From assembly GCF_947498095.1 (NCBI RefSeq), contig NZ_CANMJE010000008.1:1-64000 (forward strand): a DNA stretch of 64,000 nucleotides, read 5' to 3'. The notes beneath the pieces are model-generated. The model was given only the letters and a program-made list of their open reading frames with translations, did not search any database and was not told where the DNA came from. Position 1 is the first letter of the stretch. Each line of letters opens with the position of its first letter. This DNA comes from an uncultured Shimia sp. (GTDB taxonomy: Bacteria; Pseudomonadota; Alphaproteobacteria; Rhodobacterales; Rhodobacteraceae). The position numbers were made by a program, and so were the translations under genes. Of this stretch, positions 53,132-64,000 are shown piece after piece.

Positions 53132-53785
53132 TCAGTATGAAAAGACGTTTTTGGCCGACATTCCGTAACCCACCTCAACGCGGGCCTCGCCATCTGACAG
53201 TCCTACATCTTGAGTCGAATATTCCGCGCGCATTTTCCCCTCTATCCAAACGGGCGTGAACAACCCCGAAACTTCAATTCCGTCAGGGTAGGAAACATGT
53301 ACCATTTGATTTGCGGGAGGCGGCGGAGTGTGAATGCAGGCACCAGCATAAGGCACAAGTACAAAAGACGTCACCTTCTGACCGTCGAATTCCAACGGTA
53401 ATACATAGCCAGGTATGCGGACTTCAGTACCAATGACTTTCTCGTTAACTGCAGTGGATTGAGCATGCCGCTTTTGAATTATCGTTTCTCGCCGTTCGAA
53501 AAGCCACTCTACATCAAGGCCTTCGTCTGCCAGTTGGTTGCGCAGGTTTTCGGCACGCTCGGCCGTGATGTGACTATTGGATTTGTTTTTGGAAGACTCA
53601 TACCGAAGTATTGTTCTAAGCGCCTCCAGTTGTTCGGTCGATAATTCAGCAAAGGGATCTTCAATGATTGTCTGCGGCGGTGCCAGTTCAGCCCAACTGA
53701 TTTCCGATGGTTCTGCAGCAGCAGAAAAACCGGCAGTAACAAGAGCAACCGCAAGTATCAGAAACTTAGTGTTTGCCATTGCCAT
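53132..53785 (-). CDS. DUF3299 exported protein
   Basis: 217 residues with a signal peptide (FLILAVALVTAGFSAAAE). The mature C-terminal domain is DUF3299: PGYVLPLEFDGQKVTSF in part, then VPYAGACIHTPPPPANQMVHV, whose Cys-His-Pro cluster probably binds metal. Between lies a helical spacer. Family members are usually found beside ABC-type lipoprotein or metal transport genes; none is here, so this copy is an orphan. Starts at 53803 or 53779 are alternatives. Confidence 0.82.
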   Translation of the reverse strand: MAMANTKFLILAVALVTAGFSAAAEPSEISWAELAPPQTIIEDPFAELSTEQLEALRTILRYESSKNKSNSHITAERAENLRNQLADEGLDVEWLFERRETIIQKRHAQSTAVNEKVIGTEVRIPGYVLPLEFDGQKVTSFVLVPYAGACIHTPPPPANQMVHVSYPDGIEVSGLFTPVWIEGKMRAEYSTQDVGLSDGEARVEVGYGMSAKNVFSY

Positions 53786-54001
53786 GTGAACGGCTGCTCC
53801 CATTCGTTCTCAGCATTTACGCGGACGGAGATATCCTACCTTTTAGATATAGATACTATGCATGGCTACGTTAGGCGAAGGCAACCATGATATCCTCACA
53901 TGAACAGCAATTCATACTCATTTGACCCGACACGGCCTGCTACGGCCAGATGCAGACATTCACAGCACATTACTTCAATTAGTTTTTTCGACGAAAGAAA
54001 A

Positions 54002-54586
54002 TCAGCGTTTGGGTGCTCCGGAAATGCTTTCCTCCAAAACGGCCGGACGATCAGGAAATTCAGAATGCTCATCTTCGAGCGTCTCAATATCGGCGCGCCG
54101 TGAATATACCTTGTCTCCTATGTCGAGACCGGATTCACCCTCCTCGGTCACAGGATACCGGATTGGTTGACCGGGCCTGAGGTCAATGTTCGCGCCGCCA
54201 TCGTCGATGATGATCTTCCCGCTGACCAACACGTACAGAAAACCCTTGGTGAAGGAGCCATTCATGCCTTTCTTCATAGAAGATGCTTCCGTGATCGAAT
54301 CGGGGTTGAAAATTCCAATATCCGCAATCATGACTTCCTGCATCCGACCGCGTTCCTACATCGCTTTCAGTCGGACTTTGGAGAAGTACTTTGCAGAGAT
54401 GTAGGAGGCGTTGTTGACGAGGTTCATGAGAGGGATCCCTTGCTCCCGTGCCGCGCGAAAAACGATCCCATAGGTACTAGCGTTGCACGGGTGACCGCCA
54501 TATTCTTGAAAGTCAGCATCGATGGGTACGGGTTTCCCATCAACGGTGAAACCCACAGTATCGTGCGCGATTGCGATATCCTTCAT
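54002..54586 (-). pseudogene. Remnant of an N-acyl-D-amino-acid deacylase (amidohydrolase)
   Basis: Two open pieces in one frame, 54586-54359 and 54355-54002, are separated only by a TAG at 54356-54358. Together they give the C-terminal 190 or so residues of a D-aminoacylase/N-acyl-D-glutamate deacylase: VGFTVDGKPVP, GGHPCNASTYG, then RGRMQEVMIADIGIFNPDS across the stop and a PGQPIRYPVTEEG end. The N-terminal two thirds with the metal site is missing upstream, so the gene is dead: truncated and then hit by a nonsense change. Confidence 0.78.
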
Positions 54587-54763: not shown

Positions 54764-55765
54764 CTAGTCACTAAGGCGCATGCCCTCTTTTCGAAACTGC
54801 GAGGGGCTGAGCCCATAAATATTGGAAAACGCTCGGCTGAAGTTCGACGGGTCGCGATAACCAAGGGCCGAAGCTATCTCCTCGATTGAGCGATCCGTTT
54901 TGGATAACGTGTCCTTCGCATATCTCATTTTGATGTGGGAAATTTCGCTAGACGCGTTCGTTCCGTAAGACGCCAGCTGCCGATTTAGTTTTTTTGAGCT
55001 CATCTGCACCAGCGCTGCTGCTTCATGAACGTTCAGCGCTCTGTTTCCAACCACTTGCTCCAACAAGTGTCTAAAGCCAGCCAAGAAGTCATCCGACTTT
55101 TGCACCGAGGATGTTTCGCGGATTTCGGAAACACCGCCTTCCTTCGAAAGACCCATCGCAAGCCAGTCAGAGGGAAATAGGATTTTTGGCCCCATTTTGT
55201 TCCCGGTCAGAGTTTGGAAACCGTCATAGCGACTCGGCAACACTGTAGGATCACACAGCACCAGAACGACTTTTTCTGGCTGCATGTTGTGTCCCAGGAC
55301 TTTTTCCAAAATTGCCAACTTTAGGCCAATCATGAAACCATCATTTTGTGCTGGCTTGACCAGTGGTTCAAATCGGCGAGTTTCGCCAAAAGCTACTGTA
55401 TTCCCCCTTACTTCGACGTATGGCGTGACAGAGGAGGCAACTTTGGTGGCCTCAACAACATAAATATTCAAAAACTCTCCAAGAGTTTTTGCCTGCTTCA
55501 ACGCGAGCTGTATCATCGGCCATCCCGTCGGATCCAGCCGTGCCCCGATACTTGCGCAAAATGTTACATCTTGAGCGGCTTCTGCGCAGTTCTCCACAAA
55601 TTGGTGCATGACCATGACATGGACTGACGCGCCTGCGTGTTCACAAGCAGACATTGTTAAACCGACCGACTCTAATATGGGTTCTGGATCAATCCCTCTT
55701 GCCTTAAGTCCATGCAAAAGAGGGCCGAGCAACTGAAGTTGCACCAGGGGTAAAGAATTTGGCAT
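54764..55765 (-). CDS. AraC-family regulator with arabinose-binding-like N-terminal domain
   Basis: 333 residues in the layout of OruR/ArgR-type AraC regulators: an N-terminal ligand domain (LLGPLLHGLKARGIDPEPILESVGL, split) and two C-terminal helix-turn-helices ending SIEEIASALGYRDPSNFSRAFSNIYGLSPSQFRKE in pieces. It is divergent from the exported-enzyme operon at 55955, and the 189-base gap has nested inverted repeats. It is therefore the likely activator of that operon. The effector is unknown. Confidence 0.88.
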   Translation of the reverse strand: MPNSLPLVQLQLLGPLLHGLKARGIDPEPILESVGLTMSACEHAGASVHVMVMHQFVENCAEAAQDVTFCASIGARLDPTGWPMIQLALKQAKTLGEFLNIYVVEATKVASSVTPYVEVRGNTVAFGETRRFEPLVKPAQNDGFMIGLKLAILEKVLGHNMQPEKVVLVLCDPTVLPSRYDGFQTLTGNKMGPKILFPSDWLAMGLSKEGGVSEIRETSSVQKSDDFLAGFRHLLEQVVGNRALNVHEAAALVQMSSKKLNRQLASYGTNASSEISHIKMRYAKDTLSKTDRSIEEIASALGYRDPSNFSRAFSNIYGLSPSQFRKEGMRLSD

Positions 55766-55954: not shown

Positions 55955-57361
55955 ATGAGAAAATATAGACTGTTATCCGCTTCATTGATGTGCGGATTTA
56001 TTGCCGTAGCTGGCGGTGTCGCTGCCCAAGAGGACACTCCGCGTCAGGTTCTATTCACAAACGTAAACATATTTGACGGAACGAAGGCTGAATTGATCCA
56101 AAGTGGTTCGGTTCTTGTCGAAGGTAACCTCATCAAGACAGTTTCAGCAGAGATGATTGAAGCACCGGATGCATATTCGGTCGATGGTGAGGGGCGAACT
56201 TTGATGCCGGGTTTGATCGACATGCACTCGCATTTGTGTATTCGCAACGGCATGCTCGAATTTAGGGACAACTATGACCAAATGGCCAACGGGGCCTATA
56301 CGGCCATCGCCATGCAAGACTATCTTGACCAAGGGTTCACGACAGTTCGCGATGCTGGTTGCAACATTCTTGGAATCGCCAAGGCAGTGAATAATGGCAT
56401 TGTCCCTGGTCCTCGCATCTTCCCTAGTGGGGCCTTTCTAAGCCAAACTGGCGGTCATGCTGATACAGGGTCGTTCAATGATGTTCCTGGCGATATGGAT
56501 GACTTGGAAGCACATATGTTTGGCTTCATTGCAGACGGCATCGCTGAAGTTCAACGTGCAGCACGGCACAACCTTCGCAATGGGGCAACTCAGATCAAGG
56601 TTATGGCTGGCGGCGGCGTTGCCAGTGAATTTGACCCCTTACATACGACACAGTACTCGCCCGAAGAACTCGAGGCCATCGTTGAGGTTGCAAAAGACTA
56701 CGGTACATATGTTTTGGTACACGCCTATCATGATCGGTCGGTGAACCGGGCGATTGATGCGGGAGTTCGTGTGATCGACCACAACTTTCTCGTTTCAGAA
56801 GAAACAATTATTCGCATGAAGGAAGAAGGTGTAGCACTTTCTGTTCAGGCGGTCATGTCTCTTGAAGCTTTTGGTGACCCGGAAAGCATTACGTTCTTCA
56901 GTGCAGACCAGAAAGCAAAGGCAACACAGGTGAACTCTGGCGCAAGACAAATGATGGAGTGGGCCGTTAAGCACGAACTACTGATGGTCACCGGGGGTGA
57001 TATGTTTGGGCCCGACGTGGTACGCCAGGCAGACAATATCATCTGGTTCAATGATGAGATTACCCAGAACCCTCATCTGTCTCTTTTGACAGCAACAAGC
57101 AACGCTGCCGAAGTATTGACTTGGTCAGGTGGGATGAATCCTTACAAAGAGGGTACTTTGGGTACAATTGCCGAAGGTGGCTATGCAGACATCATCCTGA
57201 TCGATGGCAACCCGTTGGAAGACATCCATACACTCAAACGTGACAACGTGGATTTCGTCATGAAGGACGGAATAGTTTACAAAAACTGGCTACCGGATGA
57301 CAAGGCGCCTGCATTCCTGCCTGCCGGACCGGAACGCAACGCATACTTCGGAAATCTCTAA
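55955..57361 (+). CDS. Periplasmic metal-dependent amidohydrolase (imidazolonepropionase/prolidase-like)
   Basis: 468 residues with a signal peptide (LLSASLMCGFIAVAGGVAAQ). The TIM-barrel amidohydrolase metal set is complete: H91 and H93 in DMHSHL, carboxylated lysine K214 in TQIKVMAGGG, H255 in VHAYH, H275 and D348 in GGDMFG. Related exported enzymes cleave Xaa-Pro, Xaa-Lys/Arg dipeptides or lactone/amide bonds. First gene of the plus-strand cluster; the ribosome-binding site is weak (GGGAAAAAAA). Confidence 0.87.
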   Translation: MRKYRLLSASLMCGFIAVAGGVAAQEDTPRQVLFTNVNIFDGTKAELIQSGSVLVEGNLIKTVSAEMIEAPDAYSVDGEGRTLMPGLIDMHSHLCIRNGMLEFRDNYDQMANGAYTAIAMQDYLDQGFTTVRDAGCNILGIAKAVNNGIVPGPRIFPSGAFLSQTGGHADTGSFNDVPGDMDDLEAHMFGFIADGIAEVQRAARHNLRNGATQIKVMAGGGVASEFDPLHTTQYSPEELEAIVEVAKDYGTYVLVHAYHDRSVNRAIDAGVRVIDHNFLVSEETIIRMKEEGVALSVQAVMSLEAFGDPESITFFSADQKAKATQVNSGARQMMEWAVKHELLMVTGGDMFGPDVVRQADNIIWFNDEITQNPHLSLLTATSNAAEVLTWSGGMNPYKEGTLGTIAEGGYADIILIDGNPLEDIHTLKRDNVDFVMKDGIVYKNWLPDDKAPAFLPAGPERNAYFGNL

Positions 57362-57445
57362 ACCTTCCTAATTGGAAGATTGGCAGGGCAGCTTTGTTTA
57401 CCTCGGGCAGCCCTGCCTCAAACTCAGCTGAGGTCGAAAAGAAAA

Positions 57446-58450
57446 ATGCACCGCCTATTCGTCACTTTGTTTTTCGTATCCAGTTTTTGTTCTACTGCAA
57501 ACGCCGATAACTTTGAGCATTCGGTTCAAAGCGCTGCAAAGCCTTGGACGCACACAAGTTTTGATGCGGCGCCGGACAAATTTACTTTCGCTATTCACTC
57601 AGATCTGACGGGTGGTGAACGTGCCGATGTCTTTGCGACTGCCATTGCGCAGCTAGAACTGTTGCGCCCCGAGTTTCTAATTAGCATTGGCGATCTAATC
57701 GAAGGTGGAGGTAGCCGTCTTGATTTGGTCATGGAATGGGAAAGCTATGATGCACGCGTTCAGAATGCGACGTTCCCGGTGATGTATGCAGGGGGCAATC
57801 ATGATCTTTCAAGCGATTTCGAACGCGAAGTCTGGGCTGAACGTTATGGACCGCACTTTTATCACTTCCGTTACAAGAACGTCTTGTTTTTGGTTCTCGA
57901 CAGTGAAGACATGACTGATGATCGCCGCAAAGAGCTTGTCCAGCTGAGACTGGATGCCATCGAACTTCATAAAACGGAAGGTGCTGAAGCGGCCCTTGCG
58001 TCGCCCTATGGGCAAAGTGCTGAGAAGACCACTGGTGCAGTGGGCGAGGCTCAGGCGGACTACTTCGTACAAGTGCTCGCAGACAATGCCGATGTTCGCC
58101 ATACTTTTGTGTTTGTCCACAAACCGGTATGGGACGCCAAAAGCAGCCCATATTTTCGCATCGAGGCTGCACTGCAAGACCGCCCGTTCACAGCTTTCAA
58201 TGGCCATGTACATGCCTATTCCTACAAAAAAAGGAACGGGCATGACCACCTGCAGCTCGCCACGACAGGCGGAGCCTTTTTCCCTGAGTTGGGTATGTCA
58301 GAAGACCACGTTACCCTAGTTACGGTGGATGGCAGTAACGGCGTTAGCGTTGCAAATCTGATGCTTGCGGGAATACGGGATAAAACAGGCGCCATTCCCG
58401 GCAATGGTGACAAATTGTGTTTTTCAAACAGCGCATGTGAACAGGACTAA
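57446..58450 (+). CDS. Periplasmic calcineurin-like metallophosphoesterase
   Basis: 334 residues with a signal peptide (MHRLFVTLFFVSSFCSTANA). Metallophosphoesterase motifs: GD at 82-83, GGNHD at 116-120, FVHKPVW and GHVH at 253-256. The first motif, usually D-x-H, reads HSDLTGG (D53, with Thr in place of His), so one metal ligand is unusual. It probably releases phosphate from an organic substrate in the periplasm. It sits 84 bases after the amidohydrolase gene and six before the porin gene. Confidence 0.84.
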   Translation: MHRLFVTLFFVSSFCSTANADNFEHSVQSAAKPWTHTSFDAAPDKFTFAIHSDLTGGERADVFATAIAQLELLRPEFLISIGDLIEGGGSRLDLVMEWESYDARVQNATFPVMYAGGNHDLSSDFEREVWAERYGPHFYHFRYKNVLFLVLDSEDMTDDRRKELVQLRLDAIELHKTEGAEAALASPYGQSAEKTTGAVGEAQADYFVQVLADNADVRHTFVFVHKPVWDAKSSPYFRIEAALQDRPFTAFNGHVHAYSYKKRNGHDHLQLATTGGAFFPELGMSEDHVTLVTVDGSNGVSVANLMLAGIRDKTGAIPGNGDKLCFSNSACEQD

Positions 58451-58456
58451 TCTAAA

Positions 58457-59662
58457 ATGACCAAACTCTTCCTCCTGTGGGCTGCTTCTATCCTTTCCAT
58501 TTTGGGCCTGTTTTCCGGCGTAGCGCCACTTGCCGCACAGCAAGGACTTTCGGGCCCTTCCTCTGCCGCGGCCGACCTAAAGCAAGGAGACGGCCTGACG
58601 GATCCACAATTTCGTTCGGACTTTCCGCGGAACATCGCGCCGGGGTGGCATGCTTGGAAAGATGGGCTAGCCGAGCAGGGTTTTCGTTTCAACCTCGATT
58701 ATCTGATGCTTGGCCAATCCTCCAACGCGGACCTTGGTACCGGTGAAGCCGCGAGCGGCATCTTTCGGTTCTATGGCAATTGGCAGGCCACTGACCACGG
58801 ATCACTGACGTTCAAGGTAGAGCACCGCCACGCCTACACAGATGTCGCGCCGCAGTTTTTGGGACTGGATGGCGGTGCGCTGTCAATTACCGGGACGGCG
58901 TTTAACGATGGCGGAACCATGCTGACAAATCTGTTCTGGACTCAGCGTGCGGAGAACGGCTCCTGGTCGCTGCAATTCGGGCAGATCGACGTTACAGATT
59001 TTGTGGATGTCTATGGTTTGGTCAGCCCTTACACAGGTTTTCAGAACTTAGCTTTCAACACCAATCCGACAATCAGTGCTCCCAATCCTGGCCTCGGCAT
59101 CGCGGTTGGTGCTAAGCTGGGGAAAAGCTTTTACGTCGTCGGGAGCGTCGCAGATGCCAATGCAAATCCTGGTTCACCGGATTTCGATGTGTTCAGGGAT
59201 GGGGATTTGTTCAAAAGTCTTGAATTCGGCTACACCAGCGGATTTGACAGGCTTTACTTGGACAATGTGCACCTGACACTTTGGCATGCAGATGCAGCCG
59301 GTGACGGAAGCCGCGCAGAGGACTACGGAGCGGCCTTTTCGGCTGCGTGGTTCATCGACAACCAATGGATGCCGTTTGTCCGGGCGGGAAAGTCAAAAGG
59401 CACAGCAGCCCTCTATGAAAACTCAGTTTCAGTTGGGGTTGGCTACTATGGCCACAACACGGACCTTGCAGGGGTCGGCCTGAACTGGGCTGAGGCCAAT
59501 GGTATTCCAGGAAGTCAACGCACGCTCGAAGCATTCTATCGTTTTTCGATCTCACCCAACCTCCAGATCACCCCGTCCATCCAGTTCATCGATAATCCTC
59601 TTTTGAATCCGGGCCAAAGCAACATAACGTTGTTTGGATTGCGGGCGCGAGTGGTTTTTTGA
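58457..59662 (+). CDS. OprB-like carbohydrate-selective porin
   Basis: 401 residues: signal peptide (LFLLWAASILSILGLFSGVAPLAAQ), then a beta-barrel of the OprB family with ATDHGSLTFKVEHRH, TNLFWTQ, DNVHLTLWHAD and a C-terminal Phe (ARVVF) as required for outer-membrane insertion. It should pass a sugar or similar neutral solute. It is six bases after the phosphoesterase gene and so co-translated. Its solute is presumably the substrate, or a product, of the two periplasmic enzymes upstream. Confidence 0.84.
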   Translation: MTKLFLLWAASILSILGLFSGVAPLAAQQGLSGPSSAAADLKQGDGLTDPQFRSDFPRNIAPGWHAWKDGLAEQGFRFNLDYLMLGQSSNADLGTGEAASGIFRFYGNWQATDHGSLTFKVEHRHAYTDVAPQFLGLDGGALSITGTAFNDGGTMLTNLFWTQRAENGSWSLQFGQIDVTDFVDVYGLVSPYTGFQNLAFNTNPTISAPNPGLGIAVGAKLGKSFYVVGSVADANANPGSPDFDVFRDGDLFKSLEFGYTSGFDRLYLDNVHLTLWHADAAGDGSRAEDYGAAFSAAWFIDNQWMPFVRAGKSKGTAALYENSVSVGVGYYGHNTDLAGVGLNWAEANGIPGSQRTLEAFYRFSISPNLQITPSIQFIDNPLLNPGQSNITLFGLRARVVF

Positions 59663-59703
59663 TGCGATTTTTGGCTGCGTAAAAGAAGTTGATTGGAGAG
59701 CCA

Positions 59704-60099
59704 ATGATAAAGCTAGTTCGAATAACAATTGCGCTGACACTTCTGTCTATTGCGGTTGGTACCGCCGATGATGCCTTTGCCAAAGACAACAAAGGCAACA
59801 AACCTAACAAAGGTGGTAAAAAAACAGATGGCGTGAGCCTTCAGATCGAAGACAAGCCGGGCAAAAAGTCAAAAGGAGCCAAGGCTATCCCTCCTGGCCA
59901 GATCAAGAGATATACAAAAGGTGCAAAACTGCCCTCGAATTTGAACTACAATGACATCGGCGATCTGTCAAAATGGAAGCTTGGCGAGCCCGGCAAGGGC
60001 AACCGCTACATTCGGGTTGATGATGAAATCCTAGAAGTAACCGATGATCTGTCCACGGTTGTGGATGCCGTAGGCATCGTCGGAGATTTGCTTAAGTAG
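59704..60099 (+). CDS. Small exported CigR/RcnB-like protein
   Basis: 131 residues: a signal peptide, a Lys/Gly/Asn-rich low-complexity stretch (KDNKGNKPNKGGKK), then PPGQIKRYTKGAKLP and a C-terminal YIRVDDEILEVTDDLSTVVDAV, which is the motif of the CigR/RcnB group of small periplasmic proteins. GGAGAGCC precedes the ATG at 59704. The role is unknown; relatives affect metal homeostasis or virulence gene output. Confidence 0.65.
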   Translation: MIKLVRITIALTLLSIAVGTADDAFAKDNKGNKPNKGGKKTDGVSLQIEDKPGKKSKGAKAIPPGQIKRYTKGAKLPSNLNYNDIGDLSKWKLGEPGKGNRYIRVDDEILEVTDDLSTVVDAVGIVGDLLK

Positions 60100-60219
60100 T
60101 TGCTCTCGCCAGATATCAAACACTTCAGGGCAAAAACTACCTCGTTTGTCTTGAGGCTGGCCGAGGTGACTAGCTCCAGCGGGACCTCGGCCCATTTTCG
60201 CAACATGCAGGATGGATTC

Positions 60220-61044
60220 ATGACTAACTTTTTTCCCCTTGCACTGTTTCTGTCTGGTTGGGCTGGTATGGCTGCTGCTCAGGTTGGGCCAAGCATTGAC
60301 GAGCTGGCCAGAGAACTGTCCAACCCAGGCGCGGCAAACGCGACTTTGAACTTCAAGTTCGAGTATCGAAGTTTTGATGGTTCACTGCCTGGTGCAAGTG
60401 AACAGGACAGTTTTACCACGACCTTCCAGCCAGTTCTTCCGTTCGTTTTGGATAACGGCAATAATCTCATTTTCAGGCCTGCATTTCCTTATGTGGTGGG
60501 CCAGCCCTCTTTCAATTTGGGCAGCAACACATTTGACACAGCGAGCCAGTTCGGAGATTTGCCCTATGATCTACTGTATTCTTGGAGCAACAATGGGTGG
60601 ACTTTTGGCGCGGGTCTTGTCGGGTCGGTACCGGTCGGGTCTTCCATTTCTTCCGACAATTGGCTTTTGGGGCCATCGTTTCTGGCGGTGAGGCCAACCG
60701 ATTGGGGTATTTGGGGCCTGTTCCCCTTTCACAATGAAAAAGTTGACGGAAGTGGCCCGGATGTATCGGTTACATCATTACAATACTTCTTGTTTGCGAG
60801 TCTAAGCGATGGCTGGCAAGTCGGCATGGGTCCAACGATTTCTTATGACTGGAATGCCGTGTCAGGACAGGAATGGACAGTTCCCATCGGATTAACGGTG
60901 GCCAAGACAACCGCAATTGGTCGGCAGTTGGTCAAGTTGAACGCAGGTTTCGAATACAATGTTGTGCGACCTGACGCTTTTGCGTCGGATTGGAAATTCA
61001 CATTCACCTTTAGCCCGGTTGTGAAAAACCCGTTCCAAAAATGA
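60220..61044 (+). CDS. Predicted outer-membrane beta-barrel protein
   Basis: 274 residues with a signal peptide (FFPLALFLSGWAGMAAAQ) and repeated amphipathic strands, for example NLIFRPAFPYVV, WTFGAGLVGSVPVG and LVKLNAGFEYNVV. The end FSPVVKNPFQK lacks a terminal aromatic, which is unusual for a BAM substrate. It resembles the transporter-like barrels seen in aromatic-degradation clusters. AGGATGG precedes the ATG; 60205 is an alternative. Confidence 0.7.
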   Translation: MTNFFPLALFLSGWAGMAAAQVGPSIDELARELSNPGAANATLNFKFEYRSFDGSLPGASEQDSFTTTFQPVLPFVLDNGNNLIFRPAFPYVVGQPSFNLGSNTFDTASQFGDLPYDLLYSWSNNGWTFGAGLVGSVPVGSSISSDNWLLGPSFLAVRPTDWGIWGLFPFHNEKVDGSGPDVSVTSLQYFLFASLSDGWQVGMGPTISYDWNAVSGQEWTVPIGLTVAKTTAIGRQLVKLNAGFEYNVVRPDAFASDWKFTFTFSPVVKNPFQK

Positions 61045-61075
61045 CATGATTTTAACGGGTTAGGGGGGAGATAAG

Positions 61076-61567
61076 ATGAACAAAACAATTATTGCGTTAC
61101 TTGCGGTTGGCATTCTTGCCATCGGGGCATTTGCCCTGATGCCCGAGGAAGAGCCGACTGTGCAAGACAAACTGAATGAGGCCAGGGAAAGCCTCACCGA
61201 GGCGGCTGATCTTGCCAAGGTAGCGGTTGAGGAAAAGGCAGAGCAAGTAAGCTCCGAACTTGAAGAGCAGCTGAATTCTGCAAAGAAATCAACGCTCGAG
61301 ATTGTGGAAGAGCTGCAGGAGTCTGCCACGCAAACCGCGTTGGATATGTCCAAGCTTCGCGATGACATTAAGCGCGAGTTTGAAGCAGGTGGGTCACTGA
61401 ACATGGACGGCTACAACCCTTCTCGTGCGGCCGCGGCCTTAAAGGATATCGGATTGGACGGAGGTACAGCCAAATCCATTTCTGATTGGTTGGCTGATCT
61501 TTACCGAACGCCAGAGCAGGCAGAGGCCGCCATTTCACAATTTCTGGAAACACTAAAATCAAAATGA
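61076..61567 (+). CDS. Membrane-anchored coiled-coil protein
   Basis: 163 residues: one N-terminal transmembrane helix (IIALLAVGILAIGAFAL), then a long acidic coiled coil rich in Glu, Ala and Lys (about 28-105), then a small helical end with YNPSRAAAALKDIGLDGG. It probably spans part of the periplasm. GGGGGGAG precedes the ATG. No family recognised. Confidence 0.7.
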   Translation: MNKTIIALLAVGILAIGAFALMPEEEPTVQDKLNEARESLTEAADLAKVAVEEKAEQVSSELEEQLNSAKKSTLEIVEELQESATQTALDMSKLRDDIKREFEAGGSLNMDGYNPSRAAAALKDIGLDGGTAKSISDWLADLYRTPEQAEAAISQFLETLKSK

Positions 61568-61604
61568 CTTGAAAACAAAAAGACAAAGTAAGGGAGGAAG
61601 TAAA

Positions 61605-62894
61605 TTGCACAGACTACTTTTATCAGGAGCGGCGGCCATTGCATTGATGTGCGGTGCAGTGTCGGCCCAAACCATGTCAAAGTACGGCACCGACAACAGG
61701 TGGCGCGCCATTGGTGAACTGACGGATGCTCAATTGGGCGCTGTTCTGCATGCAAATGGCCGGGTTTCCATGAGTGGCACCTTCTTTGCTTCGGATAGTG
61801 CAACACTCTCTGATGGCGCCAACGAAGTGCTGTTCAAGCTTGCGCGGGTTCTTGAAGGTATGCCTGACGCTCGTTTGGCCGTGGTCGGACATACGGACAG
61901 TACCGGCGATTTTAGCAGCAATCTCGAACTCTCCCAGACAAGGGCCCAAGCGGTGGTCGACGCCTTGGTGGCTGCGCCAAACAATGTTGATCCTGCGCGG
62001 CTCGCTGCGGTTGGGGTCGGCGCCATTGATCCGGTTGCGTCCAATACATCCACCGAAGGCAGAGCACTGAACCGGCGTGTGTCCTTTGTTTTGATTGATG
62101 CCGCTGACAAGGCATCTGCAGATGGGGCATGGATTCCAGATCCCGTCACCGGTTGTCTCATCTGGAACAGTGGTCAACCATCTGACGGAGAAGGAGCCAG
62201 CTGGAACGGAGCCTGCAAGGATGGCAAGGCTAACGGTCGCGGTACGGCCGTGTTTTGGGATGCCAACGGCCTGGAAGGGAGGTTTGATGGCGACTTGCAA
62301 AACGGCAAGGCGGACGGTCCCGGTGTGGCATGGGCTCGCAATGATGACATGACAGGATACGATCGCTACGAAGGGTATTTCGTTGCTGGGGAGGCTGCTG
62401 GAGAAGTCACCATCACAACCACTGAAGGCTATGTGTTTATTGGAGAGTTCCTCGAAGATGGTGACCATGCTGTTGGAGAGCTGACAACTCCAGAGGGATG
62501 GGTTCTGCAAGGCGAGATCAAAGACGGTCAGACTGTTGGATCTGCTCTTGCCTATTTTGAGACAGAGGAAGGCGAACTCTATTTTGGCGATGTCGAAAAC
62601 AATGCCAAGAACGGGTTTGGTATGATGATTTCACCCAATGAAACCAGCTACATTGGCGAGTTCAAGGAAGGTTCACCGTCAGGTCTGGGAGTCTTTGAAG
62701 ACACAGCAGGAAGCCAGTTTGTCGGTCAGTTCGACGCTGGTTCGCCCAATGGTGTTGGCACCGCAGTCGATAGCGAAGGTGTGGCTTATCAGGGGCGGTT
62801 TATCGATGGCGTACCAGATGGCGTGATACTTGTGACCGACATGGACGGCACTCAGCGCACCGAAACCTGGCAAAATGGGAGCAAAGTAGAATGA
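61605..62894 (+). CDS. OmpA-domain protein fused to MORN-like repeats
   Basis: 429 residues: signal peptide (LLLSGAAAIALMCGAVSAQ), an OmpA-like peptidoglycan-binding domain (about 58-165, with GHTDSTG at 95-101 and LNRRVSF at 155-161), then about ten MORN-type repeats of the YxGxFxxGxPxGxG kind to the end. OmpA tethers it to the cell wall; the MORN sheet may bind lipid or protein. The start is TTG 61605, five bases after GGGAGGAAG; TTG 61569 is less likely. Confidence 0.82.
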   Translation: MHRLLLSGAAAIALMCGAVSAQTMSKYGTDNRWRAIGELTDAQLGAVLHANGRVSMSGTFFASDSATLSDGANEVLFKLARVLEGMPDARLAVVGHTDSTGDFSSNLELSQTRAQAVVDALVAAPNNVDPARLAAVGVGAIDPVASNTSTEGRALNRRVSFVLIDAADKASADGAWIPDPVTGCLIWNSGQPSDGEGASWNGACKDGKANGRGTAVFWDANGLEGRFDGDLQNGKADGPGVAWARNDDMTGYDRYEGYFVAGEAAGEVTITTTEGYVFIGEFLEDGDHAVGELTTPEGWVLQGEIKDGQTVGSALAYFETEEGELYFGDVENNAKNGFGMMISPNETSYIGEFKEGSPSGLGVFEDTAGSQFVGQFDAGSPNGVGTAVDSEGVAYQGRFIDGVPDGVILVTDMDGTQRTETWQNGSKVE

Positions 62895-63169
62895 CTTACC
62901 TGACAACAAACAAGGGACTCTCGAAGTGTCTTGCTTTGAGCCTTTTGGCTGGTAGCCTTGCTTTCACAACTTCCGCGGAGGCGGGGTCTATCGGCCGTAA
63001 AGCTATAAAAGGTGCCATTGCAGGAGCTGTGATTGGAGAAATTGCCGGAGGTGATGCTGCCCAGGGAGCCAAGATTGGCGCCGCCGCGGGAGCGGTGACT
63101 GGAATCATCGATAAAAACCGGCATCGGGATAGGGTTAAGCATCGGGTCAAGAAGAAGCATCGCCGCTAG
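62891..63169 (+). CDS. Glycine-zipper protein
   Basis: 92 residues with a signal peptide (LALSLLAGSLAFTTSAEAG), a glycine-zipper segment (KGAIAGAVIGEIAGGDAAQG then AKIGAAAGAVTGI) able to insert in or pack against a membrane, and a very basic tail (KHRVKKKHRR). It overlaps the OmpA-MORN gene by four bases (ATGA), so the two are translated together. Glycine-zipper proteins often sit in the outer membrane. Confidence 0.78.
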   Translation: MTYLTTNKGLSKCLALSLLAGSLAFTTSAEAGSIGRKAIKGAIAGAVIGEIAGGDAAQGAKIGAAAGAVTGIIDKNRHRDRVKHRVKKKHRR

Positions 63170-63262
63170 TACCTGGTGGTTACCCCATAAAGACGACCGA
63201 GGCGCCACAACGGTTTGCGCCTCGGTCCACCTGAAATCTGGAAGCAAAGGCCGGTCGAACAC

Positions 63263-64000
63263 ATGAAACATTTGTATGAACGAATAAGAAGTGAGTTTGT
63301 TGTTGTTCTACTTGCCGGAATCTTGTGCAGTCTGGCATCAATTGGTCTGACTGCGTCGCAAGAGCTGCGAGCCAAGGCCTCAGGGGCAGGCGTAACCCCC
63401 GAGGTGCTTGAAGCCTATATAGTGCCATTCACGGTCGATGAATTGTCTGACCTTGCAGGGGTTTGGCAGGGTCATCTTTCCCAATCCATCGAGTCGAACA
63501 TAGAGCTCAACGCCAGTCTTGGTGGTCTTGGTGAAGCCGAGGCCCAACGCGTGCGGGAAAAAATCACTCGCTTGTTGGAAAAGCAATCAATCCTTGGCGC
63601 AAACTACCAGGTCGTACTGAATGGCTGGTCGTTAAAAGGGGCTTCTCCAGAGGACGTTGCACCACACCAAAGCTATCTGGATGCGGTCAGCACGGCCACC
63701 TTGCAGGCAACGGATTTGCGTACCCTATTTTCGTTTGCTGCCAATTGGCTGGTGTCCAAAGATGGAGGGCTGGGTCTACTGTTACAGCTTTTTGTGTTTG
63801 TTCTTTCATTTGTTGTGTTGTTGTTTGCCGCCCGTTTTGTAAAGCGGGCCGCCTCAAAGGGGTTGGATCGCCTGCCAGCTATGTCCCGGCTTTTAAAGTC
63901 CTTCGTACTGACGGTTGTCTATTGGGTTACAATCGTTGTTGGTCTCATGATTGCGCTCGGTTTGGCGGGGGTGAACGTAACGCCTTTGTTCGCAGTATTC
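63263..64000 (+). CDS. MscS-type mechanosensitive channel (partial, runs off the window)
   Basis: The frame opens with ATG at 63263 and is still open at the right edge (246 codons). It starts with a hydrophobic helix (FVVVLLAGILCSLASIGL), followed by a soluble periplasmic stretch of about 130 residues. Two more helices follow, ending LMIALGLAGVNVTPLFAVF, which is the TM3-leading signature of MscS channels. The pore helix and beta domain lie beyond the window. It closes the envelope cluster, 93 bases after the glycine-zipper gene. Confidence 0.82.
   Translation, partial: MKHLYERIRSEFVVVLLAGILCSLASIGLTASQELRAKASGAGVTPEVLEAYIVPFTVDELSDLAGVWQGHLSQSIESNIELNASLGGLGEAEAQRVREKITRLLEKQSILGANYQVVLNGWSLKGASPEDVAPHQSYLDAVSTATLQATDLRTLFSFAANWLVSKDGGLGLLLQLFVFVLSFVVLLFAARFVKRAASKGLDRLPAMSRLLKSFVLTVVYWVTIVVGLMIALGLAGVNVTPLFAVF

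Follow-up and report, generated by a model that had tools for sequence, protein, structure and literature searches.

An OprB-type porin encoded with exchangeable amide hydrolases, usually behind a divergent AraC-family regulator, in an uncultured Shimia sp. and its relatives

The locus described here, in which an amide hydrolase is encoded upstream of an OprB-type porin, lies at the end of a 64,000-nucleotide stretch of DNA from an uncultured Shimia sp. This stretch (the window) is the initial 64 kb of the 209-kb contig NZ_CANMJE010000008.1. From position 55955 to the window end, nine open reading frames (ORFs) were found on the + strand, divergent from an AraC-family gene and separated by intergenic gaps of −4 to 120 bases, as a preliminary description of the window had recorded. 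Their number is an artefact of the window end: on the contig the run extends to at least position 72,927 with gaps of ≤135 bases, those beyond the window depending on the gene starts that we picked. The run consists of two conserved envelope gene modules, arranged head to tail. Module 1 comprises the divergent AraC gene, a prolidase-like amidohydrolase, a phosphoesterase and an OprB-type porin, followed by small RcnB-like and barrel proteins. Module 2 comprises an MscS channel, a NodT-type outer-membrane protein, an AsmA-like protein, a two-cysteine exported protein, a second MscS channel, a membrane protein and a DUF900 protein.

The regulator gene (54764..55765, − strand) matched PF12833 (2.4e-18) and, with its N-terminal domain, PF12625 (1.9e-8), in agreement with its initial assignment as an AraC regulator. 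The first three genes of the run encode an amidohydrolase of the prolidase/ochratoxinase branch, termed type A (55955..57361; PF01979, 8e-36), a calcineurin-type metallophosphoesterase (57446..58450; PF00149, 6e-6), both with signal-like N-termini, and an OprB-family porin (58457..59662; PF04966, 3e-18), which is the constant part of module 1. The porin scored 66.8 bits against a PF04966 gathering score of 22.9 bits, with the best stretch at residues 263–401, and its family profile found Porin B at 2e-5, over ~90 C-terminal positions only. Downstream on the same strand are genes for a small exported protein, weakly RcnB/CigR-like (59704..60099), and a predicted outer-membrane barrel-like protein (60220..61044). 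Based on Pfam, the earlier labels of amidohydrolase, metallophosphoesterase, OprB, OmpA-MORN, glycine zipper and MscS (full gene) all exceeded their cut-offs, while the CigR/RcnB label fell short (PF11776, 13.1 vs 25.9 bits; the relative in genome G141 scored 19.3). That nearly all nine proteins are exported or anchored, as had been suggested, was assessed with a crude hydropathy scan. Eight of them reached 2.0 near the N-terminus, while the barrel protein (1.63) did not; among 21 control ORFs from elsewhere in the window, 3 reached this mark too. Promoter-like sites (8 found, 8.3 expected from a shuffled control) and terminator-like sites (8 found, 13.9 expected) were at or below the shuffle level; the cluster is considered to exceed chance because it recurs in relatives and not on account of these scans. 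Weak inverted repeats were present 5′ of the amidohydrolase gene, and no conclusion was drawn from them.

To determine the recurrence of module 1, we searched 295 family genomes for the porin (E ≤ 1e-25), which gave 39 places in 19 genomes, the window genome included. The flanks of all 39 were read, some being shortened by contig ends. A hydrolase (amidohydrolase, Amidohydro_3 or M19 dipeptidase) was encoded upstream of the porin, on the same strand and within 8 kb, at 35 of the 39 places, and at every place whose porin showed ≥59% identity. For the counts that follow, a set of 35 loci was used, 31 from the family and 4 from plasmids. Hydrolases were found in 34 of these loci: amidohydrolase alone in 26, Amidohydro_3 alone in 4, M19 alone in 2 and amidohydrolase with M19 in 2. 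Only the locus of the Vibrio alfacsensis plasmid had none on the porin's strand; its amidohydrolase is encoded on the opposite one. In 25 of the 35 loci, a divergent match to AraC lay no more than 600 bp from the first hydrolase match; this count missed the AraC gene of G141. Other members were less frequent (barrel protein 7, GYD protein 4, RcnB-like protein 3). Since the plasmids of Sulfitobacter, Ruegeria conchae and Vibrio fortis (three of the four) carry the hydrolase upstream, the arrangement crosses classes. The window genome itself holds two further copies, on contigs C4 (L058) and C1 (L258). In a draw of 398 genomes of the phylum, a porin match was present in nine, including seven that do not belong to the family. 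For the latter, 1.5 kb of flanking sequence was examined: an amidohydrolase and DUF3299 were upstream in two (L089, L091) and AraC in one (L090), and no convincing upstream query family was found in L092–L095, apart from a short barrel match in L092. This porin and an amide hydrolase thus occur together repeatedly as a unit, in most cases preceded by a divergent AraC gene. The first genes had been proposed to act together, and this stands for hydrolase and porin; the phosphoesterase is an optional member, with the metallophosphoesterase or a PhoD-family protein in 4 of the 35 loci.

The main finding concerns what varies between these loci: the porin is constant and the enzyme is exchanged. By Pfam, three hydrolase families occupy the same slot beside the porin. 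Among 28 loci compared, 136 amidohydrolase pairs came from loci with porins ≥68% identical. For these pairs the median identity was 76% for the porins and 40% for the amidohydrolases. The amidohydrolase identities were bimodal, with 98 pairs at 30–45%, 38 at 60–100% and none between. The enzymes were sorted into type A (the window, L056, L070 and L086), type B (10 loci) and type C (5 loci), the remainder being six singles and one pair. In the alignment of types A–C, 92 columns (gaps included) were constant within types and different between them.

The window amidohydrolase showed full-length similarity to the solved protein 3mkv (5.9e-64), with prolidase 3feq/3n2c also close and ochratoxinase (4c5y) and LlADH among further solved relatives. 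LlADH acts on a mycotoxin. The binuclear metal ligands H91, H93, K215, H256 and H276 were invariant in 19/19 sequences of types A, B and C; D349 aligned with the Asp of the solved relatives, in a column gapped for type B. With 222.4 bits, the enzyme was below the cut-off of the NCBIfam Xaa-Pro dipeptidase family NF051886 (500 bits). Three of 60 genomes, one of them the window genome, encode relatives of the metallophosphoesterase, always in a locus shared with a type A amidohydrolase; type A was present in six genomes. The phosphoesterase gene is placed after the porin in L070, and in L054 a PhoD-family phosphatase gene lies between those of DUF3299 and the porin.

Two minus-strand features beside the regulator had been absent from the preliminary description. 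The first (54137..54538) is a decayed fragment of a second amidohydrolase, of the Amidohydro_3 type and presumably D-aminoacylase-like. It was detected by tblastn with 47% identity over 134 aa to residues 388–521 of a 639-aa Sulfitobacter sp. SK012 protein, and matches the C-terminus of the NF006560 amidohydrolase family protein. A 'cupin' label for 54002–54343 was rejected, as this stretch is the end of the fragment; the 'cupin-fused' amidohydrolases of L017 and L066 were likewise rejected, both being plain 639-aa Amidohydro_3 proteins. The second, downstream of the AraC gene, encodes a ZrgE-like periplasmic DUF3299 protein (53132..53803; PF11736, 1.9e-37).

Several further observations were made on the copies of module 1. 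In L065 (G057:C1), a decayed copy, the amidohydrolase adjoins an AraC gene and lacks its first ~198 residues. In L066 (G038:C17) and L087 (G007:C34) the porin gene is broken into two ORFs beside an intact enzyme gene. On G038:C3 the AraC-amidohydrolase-porin module occurs twice in tandem within ~14 kb (L272 with L085). By inspection of the sequence, sulfatase-like genes lie near the porin loci L053, L066 and L051, and another (L074:4730-6268; own contig C8, ~84.7–86.3 kb) ~12 kb beyond the window run. A protein family annotated as adenylate/guanylate cyclase in Ruegeria conchae recurs in L006, L018 and L057.

Between the porin and the MscS channel, conservation was uneven. Proteins 75% and 66% identical to the small RcnB-like protein are encoded directly 3′ of the porin in Ruegeria conchae and G141. 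The barrel protein matched no Pfam family, and its PDB profile search gave only two weak viral coat matches (0.09). Five close relatives (66–75%) were found in four other genomes of the 295, of which four adjoin the porin and one a type A amidohydrolase. The membrane-anchored coiled-coil protein (61076..61567, +) has relatives directly 5′ of MscS in G200 (42%) and, in part, in G038 (38% over 92 aa); the coiled-coil protein of G141 was rejected as a homologue (E 0.21). Next follow an exported protein with an OmpA domain and MORN repeats (61569..62894, +; PF00691, 4.6e-18; PF02493, 1.1e-10) and a glycine-zipper protein (62891..63169, +; PF13488, 1.3e-5, 25.5 bits against a cut-off of 25). At E ≤ 1e-30 in the family genomes, the OmpA part alone of the former was matched, in two other genomes. 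OmpA-MORN was rejected as a marker of the system: a search of genome contigs gave seven loci at 26–35% identity, chiefly through the MORN repeats, and these loci had no match to any further cluster gene at E 1e-4. In 69 mapped loci (tblastn, E ≤ 1e-4) these two were the least conserved members, with no match for the glycine zipper and one OmpA-domain match for OmpA-MORN; OmpA-domain matches were also seen by blastp. Separately, L007:11011-12690 (own contig C13, ~26.0–27.7 kb) holds an OmpA domain that shares 59% identity with the one in OmpA-MORN and is interrupted by a stop, with DUF1214-like sequence behind it and a DUF1254-like gene beside it (both by eye), next to an AraC-like regulator. 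Stop-free relatives of it occur in G200 and G240.

Module 2 starts with the MscS gene at 63263..64000 (+), which ends at 64549, outside the window; the full gene matched PF00924 (4.1e-21, 75.3 bits) and PF21082 (52.7 bits), both over cut-off. Genes follow for the NodT-type protein (TIGR01845 over cut-off), the AsmA-like protein and the small exported protein, and then for the second MscS, the membrane protein, the DUF900 hydrolase (ending at 72927) and an S-methyltransferase. For the membrane protein (contig 71059–71685), the provisional label DUF502 was dropped, with no DUF502 match at E ≤ 0.5 and the best match, FtsX (0.23), below cut-off. The small exported protein showed two invariant cysteines in ten sequences. 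In 9 of 10 mapped AsmA loci, taken from a longer list, it is encoded next to AsmA or no more than one gene away. In G038:C6, MscS, NodT-type, AsmA-like and small exported proteins are in window order behind a DUF3299 gene and the partial coiled-coil gene. In G200:C3 the same holds for NodT-type, AsmA-like, small protein, MscS and membrane protein. In G210 and G266, DUF900 lies ≤ ~10 kb from the porin, as it does in G038, where it is on the opposite strand. Module 2 is thus conserved but usually separate from module 1.

Our best reading, to which we give a probability of about one half, is that module 1 encodes an inducible scavenging (or detoxifying) system for amides of the dipeptide-like or N-acyl-amino-acid kind, the substrate being a prediction. 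The AraC regulator would sense a small molecule, and the OprB-type porin, judged by its family, would admit an amide-bearing small molecule to the periplasm. There the metal-dependent amidohydrolase, whose family and metal ligands are as given above, would be exported to cut the amide bond of the admitted molecule, and the phosphoesterase may take phosphate off the same or an accompanying substrate. As the porin is constant and the enzyme exchanged between loci, one entry route could serve several related substrates. Dipeptide-like compounds or N-acyl-amino acids would be the most likely of these, because the prolidase-like amidohydrolase, Amidohydro_3 and M19 dipeptidase families are known for such bonds. 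DUF3299 would probably help to supply or handle zinc for the metalloenzymes, and module 2 would be an envelope-maintenance set often retained by the same organisms.

The strongest rival, considerably less probable though possible, is that module 1 serves detoxification or signal quenching. The exported amidohydrolase would destroy a toxic or signalling amide in the periplasm, such as a peptide-like antibiotic, a mycotoxin-like amide or an N-acyl signal, with the porin and envelope genes adapting permeability. The presence of ochratoxinase and LlADH among the solved relatives is consistent with this, as are the lack of a recognised importer in the cluster and the plasmid loci of Sulfitobacter and Ruegeria, whose surroundings contain insertion sequences or an integrase. 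The variety of enzymes paired with one porin would likewise be compatible with an arms race. However, the porin is the most conserved part, and a detoxifier would not normally admit more of its target. The M19 and phosphoesterase partners also fit catabolism better.

A number of points, in this and the next two paragraphs, weigh against the scavenging reading. The cluster showed no recognisable inner-membrane importer, and nutrient uptake, which had been proposed for the first three genes, is therefore something we only infer. At four of the 39 porin places (G005:C6, G245:C920, G240:C3 and G057:C5), none of the three hydrolase families was matched in the vicinity; these porins are distant paralogs with 33–39% identity. 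The signal-like hydropathy mark was passed by 19 of 27 locus amidohydrolases, and was missed by the Amidohydro_3 and PhoD representatives (1.45 and 1.55), which makes export insecure for some of the enzymes. The regulators were diverse across loci, with 22–58% identity to that of the window. The substrate, activity and transcript of module 1 are all predicted from sequence.

The role of DUF3299 bears on both the scavenging reading and a second rival. In the DUF3299 protein, C156, H158, N165 and Q166 (window numbering) were invariant in 20 alignment rows, two of them identical. In 14 of the 35 loci its gene precedes that of the porin on the same strand. In a draw of 200 genomes of the phylum the family was present in 37, and a MacB-like ABC permease was beside it in 25 of 30 loci (one per genome, best first), among them a locus on contig C4 of the window genome. 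Because fewer than half of the porin loci have DUF3299 and its usual neighbour in the phylum is the MacB-like permease, its role here may differ. According to three papers (PMC9817125, PMC9820375, PMC11481552), Vibrio zrgE (DUF3299) sits in a Zur-regulated zinc operon, with the function of ZrgE given as unknown, and the equivalent Pseudomonas aeruginosa operon (PA4063-PA4066) is Zur-regulated and interpreted as a MacB exporter. A list of lineage-specific Vibrio vulnificus genes, given in PMC12777771, runs ABC permease, ATPase, two DUF3299, D-aminoacylase and, two entries later, N-acyl-D-glutamate deacylase, the list order not necessarily being genome order. Alternatively, module 1 could be a metal-economy locus, with DUF3299 and the MacB-like ABC genes as its core partner, that processes peptide-type metal chelators or metal-bound peptides and frees zinc (or cobalt). 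We regard this as unlikely. The 25 of 30 phylum loci and the Zur regulation in Vibrio and Pseudomonas argue for it, as do three particular genomes. In G038:C15 (L086), ZrgA, ATPase, FtsX/MacB permease, DUF3299 and Fur-family genes adjoin those of AraC, a type A amidohydrolase and a barrel protein. In G005 and G031, AraC, two Amidohydro_3, DUF3299, a porin paralog, an ABC ATPase and a permease stand in a row. Against this, the ABC ATPase, FtsX/MacB permease and ZrgA (three G038 proteins, tblastn) gave no match at E ≤ 1e-5 in contig positions 1–80000. Of 35 porin loci, only two encode a MacB-like permease in the same orientation as the porin, Ruegeria conchae carrying it on the other strand, and the regulator that adjoins the module belongs to the AraC family and is not Zur.

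The co-occurrence of module 2 with the porin was assessed in 60 genomes, 19 with the porin and 41 without, the latter being the lowest-numbered porin-free genomes and not a random draw. The AsmA-like protein (E ≤ 1e-40) was found in 11/19 porin genomes and 0/41 others, MscS (E ≤ 1e-60) in 13/19 and 1/41, and the amidohydrolase of module 1 (E ≤ 1e-70) in 19/19 and 1/41. For DUF900 the counts were 11/19 and 2/41 at ≥50% identity, a cut chosen after the list had been viewed, but 16/19 and 14/41 at a plain cut of E ≤ 1e-40. The porin genomes are closer kin to each other and to the window genome than the others are, which inflates the raw co-occurrence; the raw Fisher tests were therefore supplemented by kin-restricted tests and tree simulations. 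Restricted to kin (helicase score ≥1400 bits), the counts were 11/17 vs 0/14 and 12/17 vs 1/14. Independent gain and loss were simulated on a single midpoint-rooted helicase gene tree, giving p values of 0.009 for the AsmA-like protein and 0.001 for MscS, for which few replicates were kept (585 and 736 of 60000), 0.001 for DUF900 (5895 kept) and about 1e-4 for the amidohydrolase (0/9647 replicates). Five porin genomes are set apart from the main block by their place in the printed tip order. Of these, G007, G035, G119 and G125 carry MscS and/or DUF900, and G057 carries neither.

These data also bear on the proposal, made initially, that the nine genes form one dedicated system in which the envelope genes guard an importer. 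In its favour, module 2 co-occurs with the porin by genome, and the modules are joined in the window genome and, of the other genomes examined, in G141. The G141 stretch reads DUF900, another gene, AraC, amidohydrolase, DUF3299, a two-cysteine protein fused to a Ysc84 domain, barrel, porin and RcnB-like protein, then a coiled-coil protein, a transposase-like gene (by sequence reading), an Omp85 protein, MscS and MscS. However, module 2 genes lie apart from the porin in G038, G200, G073, G240 and G245, OmpA-MORN and the glycine zipper are not conserved with the cluster, and in G141 the Omp85 protein occupies their place. Scattered homologues in relatives had been named at the outset as grounds for refuting the proposal, and this applies in part, since most of the mapped relatives keep the first genes separate from the envelope genes. 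A single nine-gene system is thus improbable, more so than either of the other rivals.

If the scavenging reading is true, porin loci of this type would be recognisable by a grammar of AraC, amide hydrolase, often DUF3299, and OprB-type porin, and a bacterium would change what is harvested by swapping the enzyme while the pore stays. It would also offer a testable function for OprB-annotated 'carbohydrate' porins, possibly not for sugars, and for DUF3299, a Zur-regulon family of unknown function. More speculatively, and with little expectation that all of it holds, the locus may be a mobile plug-in system of one porin, exchangeable periplasmic amide hydrolases and a zinc-handling DUF3299, with which marine roseobacters and vibrios harvest metal-binding or N-acylated peptides and couple nutrient gain to zinc supply.

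The individual parts are ordinary and known. In agreement with the initial statement that no described system has this set, no description of the combination was found in the open-licence full-text literature. The closest known enzymes are the prolidases and ochratoxinase (3mkv, 3feq/3n2c, 4c5y) of COG1228, which we take to be the family number for prolidase-type amidohydrolases likened to the window enzyme. Full-length similarity and the metal ligands are shared, whereas the window enzyme differs by its signal-like N-terminus, its porin neighbour and its score below the Xaa-Pro dipeptidase cut-off. With the OprB carbohydrate-selective porins (4gey, 4gf4) the window type shares a PF04966 score over cut-off and the profile match to Porin B; it differs in the amide hydrolase upstream in 34/35 loci and in that no sugar gene was seen among the family-searched genes of the window locus, most other ORFs of relatives lying outside these searches. 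The ZrgABCDE and PA4063-PA4066 zinc-starvation operons have DUF3299 (ZrgE, PA4066) in common with the window locus, and the MacB-like ABC genes beside the porin paralog in G005 and G031 are a further likeness. In contrast to these operons, the window locus has no ZrgA or ABC match within the contig range searched, AraC replaces Zur, and amidohydrolases are added. Finally, chitoporin- and maltoporin-type operons pair a porin with an exported hydrolase acting on what the porin admits. The module described here likewise encodes a porin with an enzyme, but the enzyme is exchanged between loci and probably cuts amide rather than glycosidic bonds.

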